Assembly (NCBI GenBank): GCA_902768665.1
Contig: CACXMA010000008.1
Location: 1-64,000, forward strand
Length of the DNA stretch: 64,000 bases
Origin: an uncultured Bacteroidia bacterium
Lineage (GTDB): Bacteria; Bacteroidota; Bacteroidia; Bacteroidales; UBA932
Direction: 5' to 3'
In this document: positions 1-64,000 of the stretch, one piece after another
How positions within the stretch are numbered: position 1 is the stretch's first letter
How the letters are laid out: every line of letters begins with the position of its first letter
Position numbers and translations under genes: made by a program
Notes under the pieces: generated by a model
What the model was told of the DNA's origin: nothing
The model's input: the letters and a program-made list of their open reading frames with translations, nothing else
Databases searched by the model: none

Positions 1-351
1 CATATGGTAACCGATATGATGAGCCAAGCTCTTCGGGAGATAAGCATCCCCGAGGGCTGTATGATACACTCTGACCAAGGATGGCATTATCAGCATAAAT
101 ACTATCAAAAACTCCTGAAGGACAATGGGATAATACAAAGTATGTCAAGGAAAGGGAACTGTCTTGACAATGCTATGATGGAAAACTTTTTTGGAATAAT
201 GAAATCGGAGTTGCTATATTTGAACAAGTGGGATAACATGGAGCAGTTCAAAGCAGCGCTCCGGGAGTATGTCGACTACTACAACAATAAACGTATCAAA
301 CTACGGTTAAACGGACTGAGTCCGGTGCAATACCGGACTCAGCACATGTAA
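1..351 (+). CDS. IS3-family transposase, C-terminal part (cut by window edge)
   Basis: This is the C-terminal half of an rve-type (DDE) integrase of the IS3/IS150 group, which catalyses strand transfer of the element. The frame is open to the first base, so the protein begins outside the window. Visible motifs are HSDQG, holding the second catalytic Asp, and the LDNAMMENFFG...KSE block, holding the catalytic Glu. These are followed by the basic YYNNKRIK and LNGLSPVQYR tail typical of the family. The stop codon is followed within about 20 bases by a terminal-repeat-like sequence, so the right end of the element looks intact. Whether the upstream half is intact cannot be seen. Confidence 0.93.
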   Translation, partial: HMVTDMMSQALREISIPEGCMIHSDQGWHYQHKYYQKLLKDNGIIQSMSRKGNCLDNAMMENFFGIMKSELLYLNKWDNMEQFKAALREYVDYYNNKRIKLRLNGLSPVQYRTQHM

Positions 352-391
352 ATATCTATTATTAACCGTCCAACTTTTGGGGTGCACATCA
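1..391 (+). mobile_element. Right end of an IS3-family insertion sequence
   Basis: The transposase C-terminus is followed by a sequence at about 368-391 (GTCCAACTTTTGGGGTGCA). Its reverse complement, TGCACCCCAAAAGTTGGAC, resembles the terminal inverted repeat of IS150-group elements. The exact last base lies between 386 and 393, because several CA dinucleotides could be the conserved terminal CA. The left end is outside the window, so the target duplication cannot be read. The element abuts the GC-rich repeat that starts at 395. Confidence 0.8.
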
Positions 392-394
392 CAC

Positions 395-545
395 GGGCAG
401 GGGGAGGGGCCCGTTGGATACGAGTTATCGCGAAGCGATGACGAAGTAGACAATGGGAGGGGCCGGAGCGGCGCTTGATGCGGGGTCCCCGCAAATCTTG
501 GATTTGCGGGGTGCTCCAGCGACGCGGAGTCCTCGAAATGGCAAT
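395..545 (+). repeat. Dispersed GC-rich repeat, intergenic copy (copy A)
   Basis: The core at 395-474 matches, in inverted orientation, the segment 63158-63239 inside dnaX. A first box of 19 bases (395-413) is identical in both copies. A second box (TGGGAGGGGCCGGAGCG, 454-470) is also identical. Between them is a small hairpin (ATCGC-GAA-GCGAT, 427-439). After the core, copy A carries an extra hairpin that the dnaX copy lacks, then a short resumption of similarity (GCGACGCGGAGTCC, around 519-532). The 5' side touches the insertion-sequence end, so the element may be truncated there. Frame 1 is stop-free across the core. Confidence 0.75.
487..511. repeat. Perfect 11-bp stem hairpin inside repeat copy A
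   Basis: CCCCGCAAATC at 487-497 and GATTTGCGGGG at 501-511 pair perfectly around a 3-base loop. There is no downstream T tract on either strand, so it does not look like an ordinary terminator. It is absent from the dnaX copy of the same repeat, so it may be a nested palindromic insertion. Confidence 0.7.
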
Positions 546-569
546 GGCCGACGCAGCGAAGAGCGACAA

Positions 570-62612: not shown

Positions 62613-64000
62613 TTATTTAACGTCGAGGCTAAGCTCGTCCACAAGCTTTCTCAGTTCCGGATTCGATCCGATCAGTTCCCGGGCCTTTTCCTCCGGGAGA
62701 TAGGCCTTCTTCGGCTGCTCCTCCTGCGGCAGCAGACCGACACGGATCTTGACGCGGCCATAATTGAGCGACCGGGCAAGCGTCCCTTCGATATCGCTGC
62801 GGAGATTCTTCTCGATCCAGTCCTGCTGCGCCACGCTGGCGACATCGAAGCAGAGGACCTTGACGTCGCCATCCTCCGTCTCGATATTCATCTTCACGCC
62901 GGAGAGCATGCTGGCCAGACGCGGACGGGACTTGTAGACCTCCGGAAGCGTGGCCCAGACCTCACGGATGCGCTCGTCGGAAGGCGCCTCATCGGCCCTG
63001 GCGGCCTCCTCGGCCACTTTCGCCGCCTCTTCCTTTTCCTGCAGCAGCGAATTGATCGACAGCGACGCGCCGGTCTTTGCCGCCCGCCTTCTGCCAGCAG
63101 GCGCAGTCGCCGCTGCGGCGCCGGTATGGTCTCCGTCGAAGGACTCCGCTCCGCTTCGCGTCGCTCCGGCCCCTCCCACTGCTGCCTGCGTCATCGGCGT
63201 TGCCGATAACTTGTCATCAGCGGGCCCCTCCCCCTGCCCCTGTCCGGGGGTGGACAGGCCTTCGACAGAGACCACACCGCCACCGGATGCAGCGGCAACT
63301 GCCGGTTTAATAGGTGCCGGAGCAGTCTGGGGTTTCTGCGCCTTTACTGGAGAAGCAGGAGCGGCAGGAGCAGCAACGGCAGGCTGGTCTTTCCGGGCAT
63401 TGGCATAGGCCAGACGCATCAGGGCGAATTCGATGTGGAGGCGGGGGTTCACGGCGGTGCGGTAGCCGGCCTCGCAGGCGGTCGTGATGCCGAGGGCTTC
63501 GAAAAGGAAAGGAAGCGAGGCGCGGGAGGCCTGCTCCTGGTAGCGTTTCTTCAGCGACTCGGGCAGCTCGAGGAGGGCCTCCAACCCGGCCGTCCGGGCA
63601 ACGACGAGGTCTCTCAGATGGGCGCTCAGCGCGGCGACGAAATGGAGGGCGTTGAAGCCCTTGGAAAGCACCTCGTCGAAGGTCAGAAGGGCCTTCCCGT
63701 AGTCCCCGGCGAGGAAATCGTCCACCAGGGAGAAGCTGTATTCGTAGTCGAGGACGTTGAGGTTGCGGATGACGTCCTCGTACTGGACCGCCGTGCCGCA
63801 GAAGGCGACCGTCTGGTCGAAGATGGTCAGGGCGTCGCGCATGGCCCCGTCGGCCTTCATGGCAATGACGTGGAGGGACTCGTCGTCGATCGTCACGCCT
63901 TCCTTGGCGGCGATGTCGCGGAGGTTGCGGACGATGTCGGGGATGCTGATGCGGTTGAAGTCGTAGGTCTGGCAGCGGGACAGGATCGTCGGGAGGATCT
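62613..64000 (-). CDS. dnaX: DNA polymerase III subunits gamma/tau, C-terminal part (cut by window edge)
   Basis: The frame is open to the window end, so the ATPase N-terminus is outside. Visible are the end of the AAA+ domain ([34 protein letters not shown]), the gamma collar domain III (about 63690-63410) and the tau-specific C-terminal domain. The linker between them is Pro/Ala-rich. It contains a segment translated as [20 protein letters not shown] that is encoded by a copy of the dispersed repeat found at 395. The reading frame is kept throughout, so the protein should be made in full. Confidence 0.95.
63120..63281 (-). repeat. Dispersed GC-rich repeat inserted in frame in dnaX (copy B) with terminal inverted repeats
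   Basis: The core 63158-63239 (minus strand) matches the intergenic copy at 395-474. The two boxes of 19 and 17 bases are identical, and the region between differs mainly around the small hairpin, here ATCGGC-AAC-GCCGAT. Outside the core, 63120-63145 and 63256-63281 form a 26-base inverted repeat with 4 mismatches (inner part GGTCTCCGTCGAAGGACT). The whole segment lies in the flexible linker of DnaX and contains no stop in that frame. Confidence 0.75.

Follow-up and report, generated by a model that had tools for sequence, protein, structure and literature searches.

The 64,000-nucleotide stretch of DNA analysed here (the window; positions 1-64000 of contig C8 in the 2.03-Mb genome G000 of an uncultured Bacteroidia bacterium) carries near its end the gene dnaX, and within this gene an additional segment that is read in frame. 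It is probable, by our estimate at about 0.72, that this segment is one copy of a family of non-autonomous mobile elements with a conserved nucleic-acid fold. The family is multi-copy and patchy, its members are present in some orthologues of a gene and absent from others, their fold covaries, the same cores occur in different genes, and inside genes they are in frame and can be flipped in orientation. The initial annotation had argued that a repeat was inserted into dnaX as nucleic acid and not shaped by protein constraint, and had compared this with the logic of Rickettsia palindromic elements (RPEs). Both points agree with what is described below, where the same core is met elsewhere in varied frames and on both strands, and they can be refined in that the conserved part is a folded, pseudoknotted core, flanked by inverted repeats that are mostly local.

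A conserved folded core between local arms

Both copies in the window were correctly placed before, at 395-474 and 63158-63239, and their limits can now be refined to 392-558 and 63116-63285. They have in common a box of 19 nt (GGGCAGGGGGAGGGGCCCG) and one of 17 nt (TGGGAGGGGCCGGAGCG), exactly identical as had been claimed, and the spaced two-box pattern occurs twice in the window but in none of 100 dinucleotide shuffles of it. Chance or low complexity as the origin of the repeat is ruled out by these shuffles and by the E-values of a covariance model (R1) that was built from 62 copies; these E-values are as low as 2e-32 and include training copies, which match by construction. R1 also matches the dnaX copy at 63125-63274 (E 2.4e-27), a copy that belonged to the training set. 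The dnaX copy consists of a 116-nt core (63143-63258) between 27-nt arms (63116-63142 and 63259-63285) that are Watson-Crick complementary at 23 of 27 positions, and the open reading frame (ORF) of dnaX continues without a stop across the insert. Matches to dnaX are present in 146 of the 151 genomes of the genus, and the full ORF comprises 625 amino acids in L046. The parts of the dnaX copy and its host gene are:

62613..63998, minus strand: dnaX, DNA polymerase III gamma/tau subunit, 3' part running off the window; ORF hosting the insert
63259..63285, minus strand: P1 inverted repeat, 5' arm
63143..63258, minus strand: conserved core of 116 nt (P2 + pseudoknot, P3, P4), 38 residues in frame
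63239..63258, minus strand: P2 hairpin CCTGTCC-ACCCCC-GGACAGG (coordinates from alignment A2)
63175..63224, minus strand: P3 stem CCCGCTG / CAGTGGG with internal loop and apical hairpin (coordinates from A2)
63116..63142, minus strand: P1 inverted repeat, 3' arm

In the main family the core is about 105-130 nt long and has a fixed order of parts, beginning with the P2 hairpin (CNTGTCC/GGACANG) and a G-rich box, followed by P3 (CCCGNNG/CNNTGGG), which contains an internal loop and an apical hairpin, a second G-rich box, P4 and the motif GGAGT, while the P1 inverted repeat lies outside the core. A shorter subfamily follows the same plan, with matches of about 105-117 nt including the arms. Among 62 sequences, standard pairs were found in 97.0% of the cells in comparison to 74.6% after shuffling, and the covariation score was 0.580, versus 0.147 in the shuffled control and about 0.10 when the partners were slid against each other; in P1, changes on both sides were found at all 16 pairs tested. 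The loop of P2 can form a pseudoknot with the first G-rich box, in the dnaX copy with the GGGGG box at 63230-63234. In 327 regex-matched places the two are complementary in 94.2% of the cases, an absolute fraction that is inflated as the regex restricts loop and box, and shuffling of the same set gave 52% with a maximum of 58.1%. At 107 places the pair differs from CCCCC/GGGGG, and 88 of these are perfectly complementary and 19 are not. The variants seen, besides CCCCC/GGGGG itself, are CCCTC/GAGGG, CCCGT/ACGGG, CCCGC/GCGGG, CCCAT/ATGGG and TCCGC/GCGGA. A known Rfam family can be dismissed, as the Rfam covariance models gave only three matches at E<=5 in the six loci searched, all below the gathering score and none on the element.

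The arms are of a different nature. In most copies they consist of local, locus-specific sequence of about 15-30 bp, and in an analysis of 82 of 86 copies, reduced to the 55 whose arms are distinct, the median stem length was 25 bp, versus 5 bp when the 3' arms were shuffled among copies. At unrelated loci, cores with 95-97% identity may have arms with only 0-6 bp in common. The arms at the FolP site differ by species yet are mirrored, and this holds even for the parts that encode residues of the conserved ISIDT strand of the host protein. In the same 55 copies, the ten arm positions next to the core contain 18 G-T and 2 A-C mismatches, and positions 11-20 contain 31 and 30, respectively. As strand-symmetric mutation without selection on RNA predicts equal numbers of both, the inner arm seems to be selected as RNA, and it is probably the inner 10 bp that are under selection as a folded RNA, while the outer arm, which has no G-T bias, looks like a DNA-level palindrome.

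Copies inside and between genes

In a Pfam scan of 30 ORFs, six of which had no match at all, domains flank the insert on both sides or span it. The gene names used here are inferred from these domains. Copies lie within or between the domains of FolP (dihydropteroate synthase), TruA, TruB, TilS and MetG, and also in a radical SAM protein of the MiaB/RimO type, in YgiQ (Radical_SAM_N), an M20 peptidase, a SpoU methylase and an outer-membrane barrel protein. For a test of the frame, the flanks of 117 copies were searched separately against the ORFs of all loci, in six frames and with stops masked. Both flanks of 25 copies were found in one homologous ORF, all open and in frame; three of them were dropped as self-matches (L085, L100 and L153, each on the same contig under a second id), and thus the frame is kept without any stop in 22 of 22 testable copies, in 7 genes, while the other 92 of the 117 were outside the reach of the test. 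Contigs that stand under two ids in the set are L130/L193, L121/L197, L085/L238, L100/L041, L153/L018/L230 and L145/L323. Sense copies are read in three frames, and two of the resulting peptides are CPPPDKxRGRGP and VHPRTxVGGGAR; other copies are read in antisense. The reading frame and the strand of the same core vary between genes and can vary even for a single gene, which shows that the element spreads as nucleic acid and not as a protein module. The initial annotation had explained tolerance of the insert by its being stop-free and placed in a disordered linker. The first part probably stands, but the second is too narrow, since alignments and Pfam domains place insertions also within folded enzymes (FolP, TruB, TilS, MetG), where they occupy loops or separate domains.

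Presence and absence in orthologues can be followed best in DnaX and FolP. Among 30 DnaX loci, 29 of which entered the alignment, the long insert exists only in G000 and G086, so the segment is not conserved among relatives; five others (G027, G058, G065, G096, G116) have one or two copies of the short subfamily, and 23 have no element by R1 at E<=0.1. In L053 (G065) and L071 (G058), a single dnaX gene holds two short-subfamily copies on opposite strands. In FolP, the element is found in the loop before ISIDT in 12 of 37 aligned sequences, from 10 distinct genomes; L200 retains just P1 and P2, L199 is truncated there, and 21 others have no insert in the alignment. In two further sequences this loop holds palindromes unrelated to the element: a 32-bp TCGTACAC...GTGTACGA repeat, present twice, in L201 (G121), and arms of 20 bp around a different core in L198 (G125). 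The FolP loop seems to be an insertion hotspot. TruB of G016 and SpoU of L089 and L092 are also free of the element.

That cores have moved between genes and turned around is indicated by a comparison of the cores of 23 copies (L145 was lost to the strict pattern). The TruA core of L081 and the FolP core of L150 come from the same isolate (RUG784) and are 95.9% identical; the former also has 96.7% identity with three other FolP cores, but only 70.7 and 74.8% with the TruA-site cores of L089 and L159. FolP cores on opposite strands of the gene can be nearly the same, with 99.2% identity between L150 and L158 and 98.1% between L130 and L173.

The search for further copies in G000, in which 150 candidates were scored with R1, gave 6 matches at E<=0.01 and hence more than the two known copies. 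Four of them are strong: dnaX, C2:9227-9376, C14:129203-129364 and window 369-504. The copy on C2 (9220-9381) is 84% identical, has the same frame and lies inside a gene with a C-terminal outer-membrane beta-barrel domain, so that the two coding main-family copies of G000 have one frame and one peptide, and the C14 copy is intergenic. A short-subfamily copy with long arms is found at C9:28783-28879 (E 4e-7). The sixth match, at C9:118214-118309 (L335 1501-1596; E 0.003), is weak and represents a 31-nt remnant of P4 with one mismatch. This remnant is in frame, and the Radical_SAM domain match of its ORF, which we take to resemble queE, spans it; it looks like the decay of an element to a short peptide insert. 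Two short box-pattern matches, at C9:143362 and C11:36806, were dropped since their flanks looked like chance.

The second copy in the window is intergenic and comprises the following features:

392..558, plus strand: second window copy, intergenic, 5' part lost to IS3
1..391, plus strand: 3' end of a putative IS3-family element, in the P2 hairpin of the intergenic copy (ORF 1-351)
475..518, plus strand: 44-bp palindrome in P4 of the intergenic copy, missing in other copies such as L250 of G086

The copy had been described as lying beside an IS3 end, and an insertion sequence (IS) indeed adjoins it, but as the IS ends at 391 and the repeat resumes at 392, the IS lies inside the P2 hairpin and is a later guest of the repeat, with its other end off the contig. 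IS3-like ends hit the same point of P2 in five loci (window 372-394, L107, L115, L137, L160), with the junction after GGA and before CAC, CAA or CGA, and the element may be a favoured landing site for IS3-like elements; a 3-bp duplication at the insertion, of which only one IS end is seen, would be a guess. The 3' arm spans about 531-558, its end being estimated from L250. The similarity of L250 to this copy covers the core and continues for about 35 nt on the 3' side, but the flanks beyond differ, and L250 is for this reason a related copy and not a proven orthologue. A small palindrome of the GCGGGGTCCCCGC...GCGGGGTGCTC type is nested in P4 of two copies (window 475-518 and L114) and is possibly another mobile repeat.

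Distribution, candidate mobiliser and alternative readings

The family is common within the genus, which we take to be perhaps Cryptobacteroides. Of its 151 genomes, 81 were positive for the element in a nucleotide search and 124 with R1, for which 20 candidates were scored per genome; this, together with the many host genes, bears out the earlier suggestion of a family of protein-invading mobile repeats. In an order-wide sample, R1 was positive in 3 of 295 genomes with 10 candidates scored per genome, and this lower scoring depth accounts for part of the difference from the genus. The three are G000 itself and two others, G276 and G358, with weak but well-formed matches, 2 and 3 in number after deep scoring. 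Deep scoring of six chosen congeneric genomes gave 35 matches in G016, 40 in G027, 32 in G011, 25 in G065, 23 in G096 and 12 in G086, and hence, including G000, 6-40 matches in each of seven genomes. Ten congeneric genomes that had been negative with R1 were rescored deeply, and nine remained negative while G061 gave two weak matches; no R1 match was found by deep scoring in G158, a member of the genus, and G374, a member of the family. A pattern scan of the named genomes yielded at least 117 stretches; the 117 copies of the frame test were parsed from 113 stretches, with none coming from L105, L129, L144 and L182. Among the matches listed, nearly all titles name uncultured Bacteroidales or Bacteroidia, and many refer to ruminant gut samples; other labels are Fibrobacter (one), Candidatus Equibacterium (one) and Bacteroides sp. 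(three, all of one bin). In G016, the copies L265-L277 form a recently amplified subfamily with arms common to the copies, of the GCGGCGGGTGTCCTC and GAGGATTCCCGCCGC type. A phage origin was rejected, as a scan of viral contigs with a single exact two-box pattern gave 0 matches.

As to the mechanism, the core with P2 and its pseudoknot, P3 and P4 would be the spreading unit, enclosed by local arms in most copies. It may be moved in trans by a transposase of the host or of another mobile element, and the best candidates for this are the common Y1 enzymes of the type of the REP-associated tyrosine transposases (RAYTs), where REP stands for repetitive extragenic palindromic elements. Template switching during replication could then homogenise the arms, extend them into host codons and flip the core between them, and insertions into genes would survive only at a loop or linker and only if they keep the frame and bring no stop, whereby the protein would gain about 45-60 residues. 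Y1 transposases, mostly RAYT-like ORFs of 290-340 amino acids, have matches at E<=0.001 in 110 of the 151 genomes; element and Y1 are both present in 104 genomes, the element alone in 20, Y1 alone in 6 and neither in 21. The corresponding numbers for reverse transcriptases are 35, 89, 6 and 21 (P 0.64), and a reverse transcriptase was discarded as mobiliser for this lack of association. The co-occurrence with RAYTs is, on the level of genome content, a lead to a possible mobiliser. A Y1 gene adjoins an element-bearing truB in two genomes (L323 on G146:C38, and G124:C85). In G000 itself, hairpin pairs of the form GTAGCCACCCTCC...GGGAGGGTAGCCACG lie on both sides of a RAYT-like gene beside folP (L309, G000:C5:19194-22352), and their motif resembles the CCACCC/GGGAGGG boxes of the element. 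The available text of PMC6006769 describes Bacteroidetes subclasses of RAYT-type enzymes, one of them with atypical flanking structures.

A number of observations weigh against a mobile family of this kind. The association of the element with Y1 (P 1.2e-9, odds ratio 18) comes from related genomes, and the statistic ignores their shared ancestry. The 20 element-bearing genomes without a Y1 match include six with at least three element matches, and only one of 38 Y1 loci has an element within 1.5 kb, inside the adjoining truB; the pair on G124:C85, which was found by coordinates, is on the contig of L168 and again a truB copy. A palindrome scan beside RAYTs, which covered the 38 loci and recovered no Y1 reading frame in 10 of them, found REP-like palindrome pairs at several RAYT genes among the 14 loci listed; these pairs are diverse in sequence and are not the element core. 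The arms are sometimes common to several sites, as in many copies of G016 and three of G065, and L250 and the intergenic copy of the window have the same 3' arm and different outer flanks. In G016, 0 of 35 copies could be shown to lie inside a gene: of nine ORFs tested, eight lack a Pfam domain, and the remaining one, which is TilS-like, starts within the copy. L262 was considered as a genic copy of that genome and was dropped for the absence of a Pfam domain. No insertion with a close (>90%) empty relative was found that would define ends, target duplication and pre-insertion sequence. The nearest empty sites have about 72% nucleotide identity (FolP) and 77-78% amino acid identity (SpoU) and are therefore too distant to define the ends of the element, and a comparison of all flanks with each other, at loci that had been selected because they contain a copy, revealed no intergenic site that was clearly empty. 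Core identity ranges from 0.69 to 0.99 among 36 same-gene pairs, closely related species have like cores at FolP and TruB (up to 99%), and cores at many sites thus also pass down by inheritance. Finally, all genomes are drafts, and translation of the inserts is presumed.

That the element represents a new mobile class, in which a pseudoknotted fold of RNA or single-stranded DNA installs itself at palindromes, is swapped and flipped in fixed arms through template switching and repeatedly rewrites loops of essential enzymes genus-wide, is possible but rather doubtful. It is likewise only a tentative proposition that the element is a true REPIN/REP family, moved directly by a resident RAYT that recognises the arms as palindromic sites. 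Such a relation is in agreement with the co-occurrence with Y1 in the 151 genomes (odds ratio 18), for which reverse transcriptases give no comparable signal, with the Y1-positive G061, which first scored as element-free and has two weak matches on deep scoring, and with the palindrome pairs beside several RAYT genes; the available texts describe the REPIN-RAYT link (PMC3116915) and intragenic REPs (PMC3733652) as known phenomena. However, here it is the core and not the arms that is conserved, 37 of 38 Y1 loci have no R1 match, and size and pseudoknot are unlike those of REPs of 20-40 bp. If the core had been targeted to palindromes that existed already, the arms would be older than the core, which would account for arms that are near-universal and often unrelated to the kinship of the cores, and for the palindromes without element core in the FolP loop of L198 and L201. 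We consider this unlikely, as the arm sequences are absent from the element-free SpoU and TruB orthologues, and the L202 FolP site has only a weak partial palindrome that could be a deletion remnant.

A fold so well kept could also serve the transcripts of housekeeping genes as a functional RNA, for translation pausing, protein binding, self-cleavage or splicing, and the strong covariation, the pseudoknot and the tolerance of G-U pairs in the inner stem are what one would expect of it. Both orientations occur in one gene, though, and thus many mRNAs would contain the complement; most aligned FolP orthologues do without the element, there is no Rfam match, and the frame that is kept in 22 of 22 copies would be unnecessary for a spliced element, so that such a role is quite improbable. 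Least probable by far is a repeated protein module under peptide-level selection, which finds agreement in the one frame and peptide of both main-family coding copies of G000 and is refuted in general by the unrelated peptides that other frames and antisense copies give, even at the same FolP site, and by intergenic copies that retain the same DNA. A non-autonomous mobile element with a conserved fold is thus the reading that we prefer.

Comparison with known systems

To our knowledge, protein-invading repeats are known mainly from Rickettsia and a few REP-rich genomes. The elements described here provide a second, apparently unrelated lineage with such repeats, with many species and copies, sites at which different cores and orientations are met, decay remnants and empty orthologues, and they suggest that mobile DNA may write new segments into working housekeeping proteins, apparently without breaking them. 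The system makes several aspects testable, namely the origin of protein segments, the position of tolerant loops, the upkeep of coding palindromes by template switching, and the action of RAYTs on larger folds.

According to the available text of PMC10969869, RPEs are multi-copy elements of about 150 bp that lie in frame in unrelated genes. A palindromic multi-copy repeat of about 150 bp that is in frame in unrelated protein genes is also found here, but there is no single conserved peptide, as several frames and both strands are used, and the pseudoknotted core in mostly local arms, the two orientations at one site and the different phylum set the element apart in this comparison, which was made by description and not by sequence. 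REPs have, as far as PMC3733652 is available, 20-40 bp with GTAG or CGTC tags and can be intragenic, and a title cited therein concerns REP elements as IS targets; REPIN doublets, according to the available text of PMC3116915, fold into hairpins and are associated with RAYTs. Like these, the element is palindromic, non-autonomous, sometimes intragenic, present in RAYT-bearing genomes and an IS target, whereas its core is a pseudoknotted structure of three helices and about 105-130 nt, in which tags were assessed only by eye, and it is not detected by R1 next to RAYT genes. The enterobacterial RU/ERIC sequences, in the available text of PMC2759123, are mobile sequences of 103-168 bp with open frames in annotated genes. 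These elements, which resemble miniature inverted-repeat transposable elements (MITEs), are similar in size and in their open frames within genes, while by the same kind of comparison, from descriptions, the element has no shared inverted termini, its arms being mostly local. With regard to MITE features, the inverted repeats of the element are mostly local and not conserved, no target duplication was seen and no autonomous partner was found.

For the arms, parallels are found elsewhere. Coding palindromes inside coding sequence are described for Nematomorpha mitochondria (PMC6649704), replication template switching between inverted repeats as the source of arm homogenisation and spacer inversion (PMC8604942), and a link of template switching to RNA stems has also been reported (PMC8794818); in the available texts on the Nematomorpha and yeast inverted repeats, no dispersed conserved spacer element is described, unlike here. 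No description of the present family was found among the papers listed in literature searches, the coverage of which excludes subscription papers and preprints. As it has no single peptide and no short REP hairpin and does not lie beside RAYT genes, the element can be placed outside RPEs and REPs, and we regard it as a new form of palindromic element that invades proteins and as a member of neither group.
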